23,917 bases of DNA from a virus. The notes beneath the pieces are model-generated. The model was given only the letters and a program-made list of their open reading frames with translations. It was not told the origin of the DNA and did no database searches. The position numbers and the translations under genes were made by a program. This document shows positions 1 through 23,917 of the stretch, piece after piece (position 1 is the first letter of the stretch; every line of letters begins with the position of its first letter). The stretch spans positions 1-23,917 of IMG/VR virus record IMGVR_UViG_3300048912_000090; one strand, 5' to 3'.

Positions 1-177
1 GTGTCGGGTGGCTATGTATGGGACCAAGGACCGTCCGAGCGCACCAACTCGCTGGCCGCATTCTTCAAGGCATGGAAGAAAACCCAGACGCATGAGTCGC
101 TGGTGTTCAGCGTGCCCAAGGAAAAGATCGATGCCGTGAAGGCGGCCGTCGCATCGGTCCTTAACGGATCTTCGTAG
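1..177 (+). CDS. 3' end of an unrecognised gene (58 codons visible)
   Basis: Frame 1 is open from the first base to a TAG at 175-177 and gives a 58-residue C-terminal fragment. It has an aromatic start (GGYVWDQGPSERTN), a basic stretch (KAWKKTQTH) and an amphipathic C-terminal helix (VPKEKIDAVKAAVASVLNG). The first codon is GTG, but no ribosome binding site can be seen before it, so the true start is probably outside the window. I do not recognise the family and propose no function. It lies upstream of the first early promoter and is transcribed in the same direction as the early genes. Confidence 0.6.
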   Translation: MSGGYVWDQGPSERTNSLAAFFKAWKKTQTHESLVFSVPKEKIDAVKAAVASVLNGSS

Positions 178-207
178 CCGATCGCACACATCGGCGCGAA
201 AAAACGC

Positions 208-236
208 TTGCTTTATTAATACATCGCAAGTACTAT
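208..236 (+). promoter_or_regulatory. Early promoter, family copy A
   Basis: The -35 box TTGCTT (208-213) and -10 box TACTAT (231-236) are separated by 17 bp. An inverted repeat CTTGC (207-211) / GCAAG (226-230) brackets the spacer and could be an operator. The spacer contains ATTAATAC. The promoter resembles those at 3368 and 6259 in spacing and sequence. A pyrimidine-poor leader with repeated ACA/CAA units leads to the AGAAGGA site of the 129-residue gene at 283. Use as a promoter is inferred. Confidence 0.6.
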
Positions 237-282
237 TCAACTCAGCAGCACACACAACAACAAACCAGAAGGAAACATCGAA

Positions 283-672
283 ATGAAAGCGCAAACCTTG
301 GCCCGCAACGGCTTATTACGCAGTATCGAAGCCTTCCGCCCGCAACAAGCTCCTGTTGCGCGTAAAAATTTGTCTGCAATGGATACACTGGCTGCTTCAG
401 TGCCTAAGTCAGTATTCATGCAGGAACTGCGCAAGGCCGGCGACGAGCACCTTTGCCCTGTCGCCGAACTGATCGAACTCCATCGTCAGGTGCAGATCGC
501 GGAGAAGGTGCCGGACATGTACGCCCTTCTGATGAATTTCGATCTGGAATGGCGTCGCTTTTCATCGATGTTTCCTGAAGCCGCCGCCGATGGCTGGCTC
601 TCCCTCCTTGTGAACCGTGCGCGCGTCCTGCGCGATGAAATCGACGAGATAAGCCATGCGGGCCGCGCTTGA
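283..672 (+). CDS. Hypothetical early protein, 129 aa
   Basis: This is the first gene behind promoter A. It starts at an ATG about 9 nt after an AGAAGGA ribosome binding site. The product is soluble and probably mostly helical. The N-terminal 30 residues are basic (ARNGLLRSIEAFRPQ). The rest alternates acidic and hydrophobic helices (ELIELHRQVQIAEKVPDMY, LLVNRARVLRDEIDEI). There are no membrane segments, cysteine clusters or recognisable catalytic motifs. First-gene position suggests an early, possibly host-takeover or regulatory protein, but this is a guess from position. The start of the gene shares the 10-mer CTTATTACGC with the 27-codon gene at 6336, which also follows a promoter of this family. 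Confidence 0.75.
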   Translation: MKAQTLARNGLLRSIEAFRPQQAPVARKNLSAMDTLAASVPKSVFMQELRKAGDEHLCPVAELIELHRQVQIAEKVPDMYALLMNFDLEWRRFSSMFPEAAADGWLSLLVNRARVLRDEIDEISHAGRA

Positions 673-736
673 TTGGGTTTTCTTCGCCGCCCTGCTCGCT
701 TGGTTCCTATGGGCTACACAGCCGGGGTGGCAATGA
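656..736 (+). CDS. Possible 26-aa single-pass membrane peptide
   Basis: An ATG at 656 opens 26 codons, overlapping the end of the 129-residue gene by 17 nt and ending in TGA at 734-736. The peptide is almost entirely one hydrophobic segment (WVFFAALLAWFLWA), as expected for a single transmembrane helix. The only Shine-Dalgarno-like sequence is a weak GAGAT. The stop overlaps the ATG of the next frame (733) as ATGA, the coupling pattern seen across this early region. Short phage membrane peptides are common, but no homologue is recognised and expression is uncertain. Confidence 0.3.
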   Translation: MRAALDWVFFAALLAWFLWATQPGWQ

Positions 737-5468: not shown

Positions 5469-5890
5469 AACGATCCGCACCGATGAAGCGTACCGGATTC
5501 AAGCGCCCCGAGCCGAAGCCGTTCGAGCTGGCCGATCGAAAGACGACGATCAAGCGCACGGCGATGAAGTCGCGCATCAAGAAGCCAACCGTAGCCGAAG
5601 GCTCAAAGTACCTTGCAGCGTGCCGCGGCGAACGATGCTTTCTCGGCGTCGTGTGCGGCGGAGACGCTTCGCCCGATATCGTTGTCCCCTGCCATAGCAA
5701 CCAGGGCAAGCACGGCAAAGGAATGGGGTTGAAGGCTGACCACGCCTACACCGTTCCGGGCTGTCATTGGTGCCATCAATGGCTAGACGCCGGCAAGGCA
5801 AGCAGAGAAGAAAAGTTCGCAACCTGGGATCGCGCATACGACGAATGGAAGTTCGTTCGCGATGGAAAAATGGAAGCTGAGGCAGCATGA
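5465..5890 (+). CDS. YbcO/DUF1364-type HNH-like nuclease
   Basis: This 141-residue protein has a basic N-terminal tail (MKRSAPMKRTGFKRP ... KTTIKRTAMKSRIKK). A Cys/His-rich nuclease core follows: Cys-53 and Cys-58, Cys-64, PCHSNQGKHGKGMGLKADH (75-93) and PGCHWCHQWLD (98-108). The order Cys, N-x-G-K-H-G-K-G, K-x-D-H, Cys-x-x-Cys-His matches the phage YbcO (DUF1364) family, which sits in lambdoid nin-type regions near rusA and ninB. It probably cuts DNA during recombination or replication. The ATG is chosen because it overlaps the preceding stop (ATGA). A much longer in-frame upstream extension is the shadow of neighbouring genes. Confidence 0.82.
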   Translation: MKRSAPMKRTGFKRPEPKPFELADRKTTIKRTAMKSRIKKPTVAEGSKYLAACRGERCFLGVVCGGDASPDIVVPCHSNQGKHGKGMGLKADHAYTVPGCHWCHQWLDAGKASREEKFATWDRAYDEWKFVRDGKMEAEAA

Positions 5891-6246
5891 AAAACACAAT
5901 CAACATCGGCCGTCAGCCGGAAACGATATCTCCGCACGAGCTGGCAGACGCCATGCAGGCAGGACGCGCGTATTCGCAAGAAGAAGTGATGGGACTACTG
6001 CCGGGACGCCCACGGGCTTGCGTGCGAGACACGCTGCATCTGATGGTGCAGAAGGGCATGGTCTGGCGCAACAACAGCAAGCGCGGCGCCATCACGTTCG
6101 AGTTATTGGAAGGTGAGCAACTTCGGGAGGCGATCGACAGCAAGACGAAGCGCGCCGAACCGCCCGCATGGATGAGCAAGAACCTAGTTGGCTATGAGCG
6201 ATCGCAGAACGGCTTCCGCGATCTGTGTTTACTCGCGCGAAAATAA
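5887..6246 (+). CDS. Winged-helix-like small protein, 119 aa
   Basis: Residues 15-80 look like a winged helix: SPHELADAMQAGRAYSQEEV, then a predicted recognition helix (RPRACVRDTLHLMVQKGMVW), then a beta hairpin (RNNSKRGAITFELL). The rest is charged (LREAIDSKTKRAEPPAWMSKN). It may bind DNA, perhaps as a regulator at the end of the recombination block. No named family is recognised. The ATG overlaps the nuclease stop. Promoter copy C begins 13 nt after its stop. Confidence 0.7.
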   Translation: MKNTINIGRQPETISPHELADAMQAGRAYSQEEVMGLLPGRPRACVRDTLHLMVQKGMVWRNNSKRGAITFELLEGEQLREAIDSKTKRAEPPAWMSKNLVGYERSQNGFRDLCLLARK

Positions 6247-6258
6247 TACAGCAGAAGC

Positions 6259-6287
6259 TTGCATTGCAGATACGCCCAAGGTATTAT
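6259..6287 (+). promoter_or_regulatory. Early promoter, family copy C
   Basis: TTGCAT (6259-6264) and TATTAT (6282-6287) are separated by 17 bp; the -10 box matches the sigma-70 consensus at 5 of 6 positions. ATAC lies 11 bp into the element exactly as in copy A, and both end in the form AAG-(G)-TAYTATTCA. The leader that follows is again rich in ACA/CAA and ends in AGAAGGA. Confidence 0.65.
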
Positions 6288-6300
6288 TCATCGCAATGCA
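6260..6300. promoter_or_regulatory. Inverted repeat flanking promoter C (operator candidate)
   Basis: TGCATTGC (6260-6267) and GCAATGCA (6293-6300) are perfect 8-bp inverted copies. One overlaps the -35 box and the other covers the likely transcription start. This geometry suits a dimeric repressor, or two dimers, and a similar but shorter pair flanks promoter A. No matching regulator gene is identified in the window. Confidence 0.5.
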
Positions 6301-6335
6301 GGAACAACAATAACCACACAACAGAAGGAACCAGC

Positions 6336-6419
6336 ATGCACAACTACTACCACTTCGCCTTATTACGCCCGTCCGTCTACGTGGCCGCCTTCTTCACACA
6401 CGATCGAAGCCCGTTATAG
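6336..6419 (+). CDS. 27-aa leader-type peptide
   Basis: An ATG follows AGAAGGA by about 6 nt and opens 27 codons ending in TAG. The peptide (MHNYYHFALLRPSVYVAAFF ...) is aromatic and moderately hydrophobic in its centre but not a clear membrane helix. It is the first reading frame behind promoter C, in the same position as the 129-residue gene behind promoter A, with which it shares CTTATTACGC. It could be a leader peptide, a truncated paralogue or a small functional protein. No family is recognised. Confidence 0.5.
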   Translation: MHNYYHFALLRPSVYVAAFFTHDRSPL

Positions 6420-6493
6420 CTCGGTCGTATCTAAAGCAGACAGACACTGGCGCGCGCATCGCCGCCTAGCCACCCTTCATTTTTGAGGAAAGC

Positions 6494-8693: not shown

Positions 8694-8729
8694 TTGATGT
8701 TTGCGCAAGTATGAACTAGGATTTGCGCA
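8694..8729 (+). promoter_or_regulatory. par operon promoter with TTTGCGCA direct repeats
   Basis: TTGATG (8694-8699) and TAGGAT (8717-8722) are separated by 17 bp, giving a plausible sigma-70 promoter. TTTGCGCA occurs at 8700-8707, in the spacer, and at 8722-8729, touching the -10 box. The copies are 22 bp apart, about two helical turns, so one protein could bind both on the same face. This is the expected layout for autoregulation by the ribbon-helix-helix partner or by ParA. Confidence 0.55.
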
Positions 8730-8748
8730 CAATAACAGGGGAAGGAAC

Positions 8749-9399
8749 ATGACCATCATAGCGATTGTGATGCAGAAGGGTGGCGTCGGCAAGACAATGA
8801 CCGCCACCAACGTCGCCGGTACGCTCGCCATGCAGGGCGGCTCTGTGCGCCTATACGACGCCAATCCGTACCAGTCCAGCGCGTACCAGTGGGGGCAGTT
8901 GCGCATCGACGCCGAAGTGCCGCAGAACCTAAGCGTCGTGCGGGTCGACCAAAATTACGGGCACGCCGTCACTGCTGACGCGCCGAACTTCGATCACATC
9001 GTCATCGACTGCCCGCCGAACCTCGATATGGAAACACGCGTCGCGATGGCATTGGCTGACATAATCCTGATTCCGTTGCGGATAGGCCAATTTGACGCCT
9101 GGAGCCTTGCGCAGACGGCGCACATAGTCAGGCAGAGAAGGGCGACGGTAACGGCGCCAGTGCGCGCTATCGCCTTCGTGAACGCCGTTCCGCACTACAT
9201 CAGGGCCGAGCTTGACGAATCGATCGACGTTATCCGGGAAATGGGAGACTTCGAACTAGGCCCGACGATCGTCGACCGCGCGGCATACCGGAAGGGCGCG
9301 AAACTAGGGCTTTCGGTTATGGAGTTGCCGCCCGAATACCGAGACGGGAAGGCGAGCGACGAGTTCGGAACGCTGATGGCGGGGGTTCTCAATGGCTAA
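8749..9399 (+). CDS. parA: ParA-family partition ATPase (short, type Ib-like)
   Basis: The ATG at 8749 follows GGGGAAGGAA. The 216-residue protein has the deviant Walker A motif QKGGVGKT (9-16) with the ParA-specific signature Lys-10 and Lys-15. A Walker A'-type strand (RLYDANPYQSS, Asp-38) and Walker B (DHIVIDCPP, Asp-87) follow. It lacks the N-terminal helix-turn-helix of long P1/F ParA proteins, which places it with the short ParF-like group. These proteins pattern on the nucleoid and pull plasmid copies apart with a small DNA-binding partner. The next gene encodes such a partner, so the pair should stabilise the episomal state. Confidence 0.93.
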   Translation: MTIIAIVMQKGGVGKTMTATNVAGTLAMQGGSVRLYDANPYQSSAYQWGQLRIDAEVPQNLSVVRVDQNYGHAVTADAPNFDHIVIDCPPNLDMETRVAMALADIILIPLRIGQFDAWSLAQTAHIVRQRRATVTAPVRAIAFVNAVPHYIRAELDESIDVIREMGDFELGPTIVDRAAYRKGAKLGLSVMELPPEYRDGKASDEFGTLMAGVLNG

Positions 9400-9640
9400 T
9401 CCTCCACTGAACCGCAGCGCTGTCGACGCCTTTATTGGCCAGCAACCAGCAAAGCCAGAGAACGAAGCACAGCCGACATTCCGCGAGCGCGACTCAACGC
9501 AGCGAATGGCGGTGAACATGCCAAAGAGCTTGTATGAGGAATTGCGCGCGTTTATGAAGCTGACTGACACGCCAATGTCTGACCTGCTTGTCGAAGGGGC
9601 GCGGCGCGAGCTGGCGCGGCGGAAGCAGGGCGGCAAGTGA
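9392..9640 (+). CDS. Ribbon-helix-helix partition partner (ParG-like)
   Basis: The ATG overlaps the end of parA by 8 nt. The 82-residue protein has a flexible, polar N-terminal tail (residues 1-36) and a C-terminal ribbon-helix-helix of about 38 residues (TQRMAVNMPKSLYEELRAFM, then LTDTPMSDLLVEGARREL). This is the architecture of ParG and similar type Ib centromere-binding proteins. There the folded part binds DNA repeats and the tail stimulates ParA ATPase. The palindromes and TTTGCGCA repeats upstream of parA are its likely targets. Identification rests on fold pattern, size and position rather than on clear sequence similarity. Confidence 0.8.
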   Translation: MANPPLNRSAVDAFIGQQPAKPENEAQPTFRERDSTQRMAVNMPKSLYEELRAFMKLTDTPMSDLLVEGARRELARRKQGGK

Positions 9641-10260
9641 TGAAGACCAAGATTGATACGACATTCCAGACCATGCAGCGCGACTTGTTCGAATCGGGGA
9701 TTGCCGCACAGATCGGGATGAGCGCCTTTGGTCTTTGGCAGGCCATCAAAAGCCACGCCGACTTCGACACTGGCGAGGCCGAGCCGGGAATCCGCCGACT
9801 TGCCGAAATGACAGGGATGGGGAAGAGCACCGTATCCGAGTGCGTGAAGATCCTTGAAAAACACAGGATGCTTCGCGTCATCACGAAAGGAAAGGGCAAG
9901 ACAGGGACGCTATACATCGCCCGCGAGCGCCTAGACATTCGGCTAGGAACGCGAGTTTTGTGCACAATCGTGGTCGACTATATCCCTATGAAGATTGGCG
10001 AGCGTCTAAAGGCAATCGGCGAGGCGGTGAACGAACGCGGGCGCGTCGACGCCGAAGCGCTCACAAACTGCGAGATCATTCCTGGAGACGGTTTTAGGTG
10101 GGATTCCACCGAAGGCGTTCTGAAGGCCGCGCTTCCAACAACTGAACTTGCGACGCCGCCTGATGAGGTTGATGAGGATTCTGCGCACCCTGCAGTGCGC
10201 CGTTTGATGGACACCCGGAGGCGGATCGCGGCAGCGCCGAAGGATATAGAAGAGATATAA
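9640..10260 (+). CDS. Winged-helix plasmid-type replication initiator (candidate Rep)
   Basis: The stop of the RHH gene overlaps the start (GTGATG), and the ATG at 9640 is preferred. The 206-residue protein has a helix-turn-helix near residues 50-78 (GIRRLAEMTGMGKSTVSECV) followed by a beta wing (MLRVITKGKGKTGTLYIA). A second less clear folded part follows, then an acidic, Pro-rich tail. A transcription-factor role is possible. However, four 20-bp iterons and a DnaA box begin 10 bp after its stop, and it is co-transcribed with par genes, so an initiator role is the better explanation. It does not show the obvious double winged-helix signature of Rep_3 initiators. Confidence 0.65.
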   Translation: MKTKIDTTFQTMQRDLFESGIAAQIGMSAFGLWQAIKSHADFDTGEAEPGIRRLAEMTGMGKSTVSECVKILEKHRMLRVITKGKGKTGTLYIARERLDIRLGTRVLCTIVVDYIPMKIGERLKAIGEAVNERGRVDAEALTNCEIIPGDGFRWDSTEGVLKAALPTTELATPPDEVDEDSAHPAVRRLMDTRRRIAAAPKDIEEI

Positions 10261-20498: not shown

Positions 20499-21074
20499 TC
20501 AGAACCTCAGATCTACGACAAGGTGAATGCGATCCTCTGCCGAGTTGTTGATAACTTCATGCTCGATCGCGTTTTGGAACCACCAGACTTCACCGGGACG
20601 CATCCATACTTGCTCGTCACCGCAGCGGAACACGTTGCCGGGTTCCGATTGGATGACGATGTGATAGCGATCCCAATATTCCGCATGCCAAGGCGAATCA
20701 GCGTGCGGGAAGATCCGGCCGCCCGGGACGATGCGATTCAACATGCAGCGCCCGAGCCGCGTCGCGCCCATCGAGGACATAAGCGCCATGATGTGTGCGC
20801 GCGCTTCAGGCAGTTCGTTGATCTCGTCGCGCCAGGGACATTCGTGCAGATCATGGCCGGCGAGTTTGTTCTGCTTGTAGAGATCAAGCTGCTCGTCGTT
20901 CTCGACGTTCACCTTGTCTTGAAAGCGCAGATATATCGTGTCGGTTTCTCCGAACGGCCCTTGCGGAAACTTGCGCAGGAAGTCGTCGGCCTTCCACAGA
21001 TCCGGCTTTCGATAGACAGCGTTCAACAGGGGTTGGACATTCAGCCCTTCAGCGATCTTCAGGAAGTTTCTCAA
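20499..21074 (-). CDS. 2-oxoglutarate/Fe(II) dioxygenase, aspartyl/asparaginyl beta-hydroxylase-like
   Basis: This 191-residue protein shows the iron-binding set His-124 and Asp-126 (FPHADSPWHAEYWDRYHIVI) and His-172 (NAIEHEVINNS). Arg-182 (DRIHLVVDL) is placed to bind 2-oxoglutarate. The C-terminal half (CGDEQVWMRPGEVWWFQNAIEH) matches the aspartyl/asparaginyl beta-hydroxylase core fold. Such enzymes hydroxylate Asp or Asn in proteins, or free amino acids. The N-terminal 100 residues are helical and not recognised. The gene overlaps the upstream small gene (ATGA) and abuts the GNAT gene, inside the virion operon. The substrate is unknown; a virion or host protein is possible. Confidence 0.87.
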   Translation of the reverse strand: MRNFLKIAEGLNVQPLLNAVYRKPDLWKADDFLRKFPQGPFGETDTIYLRFQDKVNVENDEQLDLYKQNKLAGHDLHECPWRDEINELPEARAHIMALMSSMGATRLGRCMLNRIVPGGRIFPHADSPWHAEYWDRYHIVIQSEPGNVFRCGDEQVWMRPGEVWWFQNAIEHEVINNSAEDRIHLVVDLRF

Positions 21075-21412: not shown

Positions 21413-22015
21413 TTACCCTCGTGCATAGACTGTCTGCGTGCCGACAGGGATCGCAGATGTGAACGTGATCGTCGTTCCGGCGATCGTGTATTGGTCGCTG
21501 CCCTGGAATACGCCGTCGAAATGCACCGTGACGGCCGCGGCGTTCGCGTATGCCTTCGATAGCGTCAGGCTCGTCGTTGTCCCAGGCGTGAAACCAGTTC
21601 CCGAGACGAATCGATCTTCAACCGTCGCCGTCATCGCGTCGAGCTTCGCCTTGTCCGCACCCGACATGAAGCCGTTCGCCGTTTGCGTAGCGACTGCATG
21701 AAGATCCGGCGCGTCCTGTATGCCGTGCGTCGGGACGAACGAATCAGGCTCGCTCTGCGTCACCGCGCCAGCAAGCACAGAAAGCGCCGCCTCGACGTCA
21801 GCAATACGCAGCGCGGCCCCGTAATCGACCGGCACCAGCGAGGCGATCTGTTGAGCCACTTCCGACAGTTCCTGAGTCGATCCGCTATCTCCCGATGTGC
21901 CGCCAGTTCGATTGAAAAGCGCGATCAGAAGCTGGAACCAGACCATCGAAAGCCGGCCCGTCTTCGGGTCGACCAGCGGCACGCCGACGTCTGGAAAGTT
22001 TGTCGGCGTGCTCAT
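21413..22015 (-). CDS. Tail needle or fibre candidate, 200 aa
   Basis: The ATG at 22015 overlaps the stop of the gp10-like gene (ATGA). The N-terminus (PLVDPKTGRLSMVWFQLLIA) is a common phage fibre motif. Residues 48-85 are heptad-like and may form a trimeric coiled coil. HAVATQTANGFMSGADKAKLDAM (106-128) is the G-F-M-S-x-x-D-K-x-K-L-D element of phage fibres. Residues 136-200 are a beta module also present in the first tailspike. In P22 the gene after gp10 encodes the gp26 tail needle, which plugs the tail. Synteny suggests the same role here, but sequence similarity to gp26 is not apparent. Confidence 0.65.
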   Translation of the reverse strand: MSTPTNFPDVGVPLVDPKTGRLSMVWFQLLIALFNRTGGTSGDSGSTQELSEVAQQIASLVPVDYGAALRIADVEAALSVLAGAVTQSEPDSFVPTHGIQDAPDLHAVATQTANGFMSGADKAKLDAMTATVEDRFVSGTGFTPGTTTSLTLSKAYANAAAVTVHFDGVFQGSDQYTIAGTTITFTSAIPVGTQTVYARG

Positions 22016-23436
22016 GTCCTGGCCCTCGACACATCGACCCATGCGCCGTTAAGCGCAGTCTTGACCGGAGCGGACCATGACAGTTCGAACACGCGTTCGC
22101 GCGCATAGCCGAGGCGCTGCCATTGAATCGACGTGAGGTATTCGCCAGCCTTGCCAAGCGAGTTTGTTACCGCGTTTCCCCAACTGCGCCCGCGGTCATC
22201 GGACCAGCGCAGGCGAATCTCAGGCTCTGCGGAGTCGCCGGGCAGGCCGTTACCGACTTCCATATCCGCGATGAATTGCCGGAACAGGACGCGGTTTCCA
22301 TCGGCTCCGCTGATGTGCGGGAAGCCCCGAACGCAGAGAAGCGGGTTACCGTTGTCGGTGTATGCGTTCGGGTCGAGCGCGTACACCTTGCCGGTTTCCC
22401 AGTCGCCAACGAGGTTTTGGCCGCCATTGAACGAATAGCAGTTCGCGCGGTGCCGGCTGAATGTGCCGTCTGCCTCCAGATATCCACGCTCAGCCCATTG
22501 GCCCGTTGCCGTGTCGAAGCACCATGTCTTATTGGCGGTCGGGAACGTCAACACGTAGAACGCGTGGCCGCCTTGCAGGTACGAAAAGCCGATCGCGTCG
22601 TCTATCCGGCTGTACGTTAGAAACTCCTGCTCCATCGCGTGCGTTGAGATCCGCTCAGCCGCGTAGTTGCGGCCGGCAAAAACAACGCCCTGCCCCTGCA
22701 GATCCTTGCCGACCCAAAACAGCGCGAGATCGATCTTTGCGACCGAGTGCTTCGCAGCGCATCCATGCTCGACGTACACACCCGGCATGCGGCCGAACGT
22801 GAAATCTGATGCGCCGGTGTTGTACCAAACTTCGGTTGTCTGCTCGCCGAACAACCAGATTTCACGGTGCATCACCGCAAGCGTGACGAGATTGTCCGAA
22901 TACGTCGACTTCGACGCGATATCTAGCGAATCGAACGTAATGTCGTTGTATTTCGAGATGTAGAAGTGCTGCGTGCCAGGCTGATTGAACACGAAATAGC
23001 CGTCGACATAATCCACGCGATCAGCCCCATAGAAAGCCGGGTCAGCGCATGGGATCATCACATTGGTTGTGATATCGACCGTGAATCCGTTCTTGGAGCC
23101 GTCGACAATGAACGCGTTCGTCCCGTTGTCGACCATCGACACAACGCCCGAAAGCGTGGAAAGCGCGCCGATCTGCTTATAGACGTTCGACGAATCCACG
23201 TAGTAGACATTCATGCCGACCACTTCGTAACGCTTGCCATTCGATGCCGTGTAGATGCAACGACTTTCCGCGGCAATGGGCGGCGTCGAAACAAGCGTGA
23301 GGCCCGGCGTCGGGTAATACGTGAACTGCGCGGCCGAGTCTTGCGGGTTCTGCTCAGCAAATAAATTTACCGACCGCTGTGCGTTAGCGATGACGCTTTT
23401 CGCGGTGTACGCACCGCCAGTCAGAGGAATCCGCAT
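22012..23436 (-). CDS. P22 gp10-like packaged-DNA stabilisation protein, 474 aa
   Basis: The length matches P22 gp10 (472 residues). The N-terminus (RIPLTGGAYTAKSVIANAQRSVNLFAEQNP) and TYYPTPGL are characteristic of the family. So are VEHGCAAKHSVAKIDLALFWVGKD, FWVGKDLQGQGVVFAGRNY and the R-I-S-T-H-A-M-E stretch. gp10 forms the hexameric lower part of the short tail, between gp4 and the needle, and keeps packaged DNA inside the capsid. The start is the first ATG and overlaps the gp4-like stop by 1 nt. The gp4-like gene upstream and fibre candidate downstream keep the P22 order. Confidence 0.93.
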   Translation of the reverse strand: MRIPLTGGAYTAKSVIANAQRSVNLFAEQNPQDSAAQFTYYPTPGLTLVSTPPIAAESRCIYTASNGKRYEVVGMNVYYVDSSNVYKQIGALSTLSGVVSMVDNGTNAFIVDGSKNGFTVDITTNVMIPCADPAFYGADRVDYVDGYFVFNQPGTQHFYISKYNDITFDSLDIASKSTYSDNLVTLAVMHREIWLFGEQTTEVWYNTGASDFTFGRMPGVYVEHGCAAKHSVAKIDLALFWVGKDLQGQGVVFAGRNYAAERISTHAMEQEFLTYSRIDDAIGFSYLQGGHAFYVLTFPTANKTWCFDTATGQWAERGYLEADGTFSRHRANCYSFNGGQNLVGDWETGKVYALDPNAYTDNGNPLLCVRGFPHISGADGNRVLFRQFIADMEVGNGLPGDSAEPEIRLRWSDDRGRSWGNAVTNSLGKAGEYLTSIQWQRLGYARERVFELSWSAPVKTALNGAWVDVSRART

Positions 23437-23894
23437 CAGTAATTAGAGCCGCTGTAGATGTTGTAACGCTGCTTCGAGCCGAGGCCGCGAGGCATCGTCA
23501 TGGACGGGATCTGGCTGTTCATTCGCTTCACAACACGCTTGGCATTCAGCGCGAGACCAATAAGCGAACGCTGCGGCTCGATCTGATACGACGGCGCGAG
23601 ATACAGGCCAAGGTTGTAGCGAATCGCAGCCATGTACTCAGGCGGCAGGTTGATGACTTGCCCTGTCGCCGTGAACTGCGGAAGCGCCTCCATCGTGACG
23701 ATGTGAAGCTGAAACGTGCTGTCCGGGATCGGGTAATACGTCAGGTTTCCAAGCGGGAAAGCCGGGTCGTAATAGGCCCACGCAGGGAACGATTGCAGCC
23801 CCTTCAATGCCAGGCGCGAATAGTCCTCCATCGACTCGATAATCCGAACCGGATAATCGATCGGCGTCGAGCTGCCCGCATTGAGCCGCGCATA
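23436..23894 (-). CDS. P22 gp4-like tail accessory factor, 5' end missing
   Basis: The frame is open from the contig edge. It shows 152 residues, 21 of them upstream of the internal Met at 23831 (YARLNAGSSTPIDYPVRIIES), so that Met is not the true start. The sequence SRLALKGLQSFPAWAYYDPAFPLGN, then YYPIPDSTFQLHIV and LPPEYMAAIRYNLGLYLAPSY, fits the P22 gp4 family. That family's twelve copies extend the portal and receive gp10. P22 gp4 has 166 residues, so only some 15 are probably missing. The gene is cut by adapter sequence rather than by a biological break. Confidence 0.85.
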   Translation of the reverse strand, partial: YARLNAGSSTPIDYPVRIIESMEDYSRLALKGLQSFPAWAYYDPAFPLGNLTYYPIPDSTFQLHIVTMEALPQFTATGQVINLPPEYMAAIRYNLGLYLAPSYQIEPQRSLIGLALNAKRVVKRMNSQIPSMTMPRGLGSKQRYNIYSGSNY

Positions 23895-23895
23895 T

Positions 23896-23917
23896 AGATC
23901 GGAAGAGCGTCGTGTAG
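23896..23917. other. Illumina adapter remnant at the contig end
   Basis: The last 22 bases begin AGATCGGAAGAGC and continue CGTCGTGTAG-like (GTCGTGTAG at the very end), identical to the standard TruSeq universal adapter read-through. They interrupt the gp4-like gene and are not phage sequence. Confidence 0.97.

Follow-up and report, generated by a model that had tools for sequence, protein, structure and literature searches.

The window analyzed here, a stretch of 23,917 nucleotides from an IMG/VR virus record, breaks off at its right edge within an open reading frame, and this raises the question of whether a phage genome ends at this position or only the assembled contig does. The initial annotation attributed the terminal 22 bases to TruSeq adapter read-through and named a comparison with the Illumina adapter sequence as a way to check this.

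Results

The plus strand of the window ends with GCATAT directly followed by AGATCGGAAGAGCGTCGTGTAG, which makes up the last 22 bases (23896-23917). These bases are the first 22 nt of the Illumina TruSeq read-2 (universal) 3' read-through adapter, with agreement in 22 of 22 letters from the adapter's first base onward; the comparison thus returned identity throughout and the attribution to adapter stands. In excerpts from the literature, PMC10038132 prints a 33-base read-2 adapter and PMC7303419 an "adapter 2", and both of these begin with the 22 letters found at the window's end. When both strands were searched, this was the sole site in the window that matches the 22-mer with three or fewer mismatches, and none of 100 dinucleotide shuffles of the window contained a match. 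The layout is insert followed by adapter on the plus strand, with the adapter placed directly 3' of the insert and its last base coinciding with the last base of the window, i.e. the orientation of a read-2 read-through. In these comparisons, we found no evidence against the adapter identity.

The same 22-mer was recovered from at least 120 other IMG/VR contigs (loci L002-L121; 128 copies in the listed loci). Among the listed copies, 114 of 128 are located within 60 nt, and 127 of 128 within 350 nt, of the contig end toward which they point, and these counts were unchanged when distances were rechecked in contig coordinates, given that 20 of the 120 listed loci are parts of longer contigs. The single exception, in L102, lies near one end and faces inward. 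Most of the listed copies (117/128) extend into more adapter letters, ten of them through all 58 letters compared, and the 22-mer read backwards gave no matches in IMG/VR as a control. The read-1 sister adapter is present in at least 120 loci with 128 copies listed, all of which lie within 250 nt of a contig end except for one copy in L138 at 1269 nt.

To define what phage DNA occupies the junction, we assembled a set of 71 relatives consisting of 69 IMG/VR loci, confirmed among 88 candidate stretches as relatives of the cut protein, and two genome contigs, confirmed among 24 candidate stretches in a scan with the neighboring head closure protein. For 63 of these, a DNA alignment starts within 150 bases of the edge; the remaining eight comprise two loci that start further inward (L295 and L296) and six that share 36-57% protein identity (L297-L302). 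In 60 of the 63, the first aligned base is the one at the junction or its inner neighbor. Of the other three, L253 and L278 have contigs that start inward of the junction, and the alignment of L303 starts deeper in the window. Phage DNA runs across the junction in 61 of the 63 aligned relatives, and in these the 22 columns at the adapter site match the adapter at 2-5 of 22 positions, whereas the next 22 columns match the window at 15-22 of 22 positions in 60 of the 61 (and at six in L303, which is read at an offset). The 12-base adapter core was absent from the searched stretches of the 72 relative loci L234-L305. In a phage collection, a DNA search gave three matches, all weak and partial, and a search with the head closure protein returned 46 records, each with less than 60% identity.

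The strongest case is L242, which is 99.78% identical to the window over 10,457 nt without gaps. Its alignment stops at 23895, and 23896 is therefore the exact start coordinate of the adapter. L242 then extends 39 nt past the junction as phage DNA; L234 has the same 39 nt, and L235-L241 show two differences from them.

In principle, the 22 bases could be real phage DNA that resembles an adapter by chance or through local recombination. Apart from their position in the record, nothing argues for this idea, and (i) the exact 22-base identity that was absent from all shuffles, (ii) the unrelated bases at this site in the aligned relatives, (iii) the end of L242 homology precisely where the adapter begins, and (iv) the outward-pointing end positions of the 22-mer across IMG/VR all argue against it. 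We consider this explanation refuted for practical purposes, because the relatives differ and L242 diverges exactly at the adapter; the chance that it is correct is vanishingly small.

The gene that is interrupted by the adapter lies on the minus strand and encodes a head-tail adaptor-like protein, of which the window retains the 3' part, i.e. 152 codons and the stop codon (23436-23894), and lacks the 5' 85 codons. The retained part matches positions 96-227 of 238 in phrog_12985 and positions 72-143 of 156 in phrog_637. In ten of 15 relatives examined, among them all eight with 99% protein identity, the full frame, counted from its first start codon, comprises 237 amino acids, 85 of which precede the junction codon, and this leaves 152 in the window; the remaining five relatives have frames of 238, 238, 238, 239 and 246 amino acids. 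The claim that the right edge is no phage terminus and that the gene is cut artificially is borne out by the 61 of 63 relatives that cross the junction and by the 237 codons of the full gene in the eight 99%-identical relatives compared to the 152 that are kept.

The full-length 237-amino-acid ORF of L236 matches PHROG 637, "head-tail adaptor Ad3", with E = 1.3e-11, and it is on this match that the putative "gp4-like" label rests, Ad3 being what we take to be the P22 gp4 class. With regard to Ad3 membership, the full-length relative fits the family profile and a head closure Hc3/packaged-DNA stabilization-like gene (22012-23436, minus strand; phrog_578, E = 1.1e-113) adjoins the cut gene in the window. 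A search of PDB sequences with the full-length adaptor-like protein gave nothing better than an insignificant match (E = 0.72). The head closure protein also has relatives with 80% and 70% identity in the genomes of Paraburkholderia kirstenboschensis (L303) and Pandoraea eparura (L304), respectively, which points to a host in the family Burkholderiaceae.

Upstream of the phage codons, the open frame on the minus strand begins with TRRSSDL, a false start (23895-23915, minus strand) that is translated from the adapter and in which the last codon is completed by phage base 23895. An excerpt of the DoMY-Seq report (PMC7949039) describes the 5' TruSeq adaptor as being translated into HSFPTRRSSDL, i.e. 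the same adapter in the same frame gives TRRSSDL; in that excerpt the peptide is an established linker component of a two-hybrid library, whereas here it forms the false N-terminus of a truncated phage protein.

The initial annotation predicted that terminase, portal and capsid genes should follow beyond the edge, and all of these are present outward of the cut gene in L236, in which a 152-amino-acid ORF without a PHROG match is followed by the major head protein, the scaffold, the portal and then the terminase large subunit; an exonuclease gene is located farther outward. The 36,329-base record behind L251, referred to here as G001, contains both window edges: base 1 of the window corresponds to base 6442 (99.85% identity over 676 nt) and base 23895 to base 20987, and the other window matches are in a consistent order. 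Relative to this record the window would lack about 14.5 kb. In G001, this interval includes O-like and DnaC-like replication genes, a terminase gene, an exonuclease gene and a repressor-like gene; the portal, scaffold and head genes were assigned from the corresponding part of L236 rather than in G001 itself. When the terminal 300 bases at either end of G001, G003 and G005 were compared, none of the three showed an exact end-to-end overlap of at least 10 bases, a sign of circularity, and the 14.5-kb gap is therefore based on the synteny with G001 and not on a closed genome.

The left contig edge also cuts an ORF: positions 1-177 on the plus strand encode the C-terminal 58 amino acids of a 123-amino-acid ORF (phrog_4254), which is seen as the longer ORF in L305 (9806-10177). 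No other 12-base adapter core was found on either strand of the window, so that none is present at the left end, and an adapter at this end was rejected.

Several observations concern other parts of the window. Positions 1-676 are 99.85% identical to 5767-6442 of G001, with other matched pieces of more than 100 nt at only 75-87%; the break in high identity coincides with the end of an ORF (283-672), and four more records (G003-G006) share part of the 676 bases with 95-97% identity. In G003, G004 and G005, the leader-like stretch at 203-276 recurs in weaker form (76-79%) after about 6 kb, and by eye a similar stretch is found near 6255-6330 of the window. This repeat is possibly a promoter or leader. 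A promoter and terminator scan of window positions 1-700 gave no promoter-like sites and two terminator-like sites compared to 0.9 expected. Further in, a ParA-like partition ATPase (8701-9399; PHROG 164, E = 1.4e-38) precedes a small ORF that matches nothing in Pfam (9392-9640) and a protein with weak matches to replication initiators or helicase loaders (9637-10260). Speculatively, the phage may, judging by these genes, persist as a plasmid.

A different explanation of the edge is that it represents a true physical chromosome end, such as a cos or pac end or a direct terminal repeat, to which adapter was ligated in many fragments. Adapters ligate to DNA ends, and a fixed end would therefore be expected to yield many fragments with the same junction; moreover, the L242 and L253 contigs also begin within 40 nt of the junction. 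Against this stand the 61 of 63 aligned relatives that cross the junction and the finding that none of the 63 begins exactly there. Also, phage DNA extends past the junction in L242, a near-identical phage across 10.4 kb, and the junction falls within a conserved structural gene; in L236, the corresponding point is separated from the terminase gene by about 5 kb. A natural terminus was rejected given that the genomes of the relatives do not end there, and we regard this explanation as very improbable. There is a similarly slight chance that fragment ends were enriched at 23895/23896 in the sample, for instance by a cleavage or packaging end of this one phage variant, which would make the junction common enough to be assembled.

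The region next to the junction differs from L242 in a distinct manner. Over the 10,457 nt aligned with L242, the window differs at 23 sites, every one of which is located at 23293-23703, i.e. 193-603 nt from the junction, and at these sites L234 agrees with L242 in 23 of 23 cases and each of L235-L241 in 21 of 23. This pattern appears to be a sign of mixed strains near the edge; the segment 23293-23703 of the window looks like a local exchange between strains that arose through recombination or during assembly. The L242 contig begins 39 nt beyond the junction and that of L253 begins 17 nt inside it. Because both begin this close, assemblers may have difficulty with this stretch for some further reason as well. 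The first 126 nt of L242 are exactly those of L234, which suggests a fork between co-occurring strains, and together with the clustered differences this sharing implies that a strain fork may have helped to end both the window contig and L242 there.

Discussion

Combining the identity of the terminal bases with the comparison to relatives, we are practically certain that the 22 bases are synthetic library DNA and that the phage genome continues; an untrimmed read-2 read-through would have ended the contig. We propose the following sequence of events: (i) a short fragment with an insert ending at 23895 would have been ligated to the TruSeq adapter, (ii) read 2, which we infer from the observed sequence and its orientation, would have passed through the insert into the adapter, and (iii) the untrimmed part of the adapter would have been used by the assembler as the last bases of the contig, with assembly stopping there. 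The edge itself, we infer, was made by an untrimmed read. The phage genome itself goes on, as the relatives show, with 85 more N-terminal codons and then the capsid, scaffold, portal and terminase genes.

This scenario is in agreement with what has been described for other sequence collections. In an excerpt of the study by Moeller et al. 2024 (PMC11536531), adapter contamination in MGnify genomes is concentrated at contig ends and the authors reason that the adapter broke contigs during assembly. As in the excerpt, a universal adapter adjoins a forward- or reverse-specific part, and contig ends carry the forward orientation and contig beginnings the reverse complement. Differently from the microbial genomes in MGnify databases treated in that excerpt, the case here is a phage contig in a virus record, i.e. 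the same artefact in another database. Untrimmed adapters are also a subject of PMC7953547, as seen from an excerpt.

Such artefacts extend to predicted proteins. For 68 of the 128 listed copies, a frame leading from the adapter into the contig stays open for at least 60 codons, a count made without a chance control, and in L002-L121 these frames open with LHDALPI, YTTLFRS or TRRSSDL. Given this count, false protein ends may well be frequent in records of this type, and adapter-derived open frames could introduce erroneous protein starts into databases. When the full-text literature was searched for the three peptides, the sole match was TRRSSDL as a designed linker (PMC7949039).

In total, the right edge of the window is an ordinary and known laboratory artefact at the edge of an incomplete phage contig and holds no biological novelty; the finding matters for data quality only. 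The last 22 bases are to be trimmed, the right edge is not to be taken as a phage terminus, and the cut gene should not enter databases as a protein starting with TRRSSDL, and the same tag is borne by the at least 120 other IMG/VR contigs.
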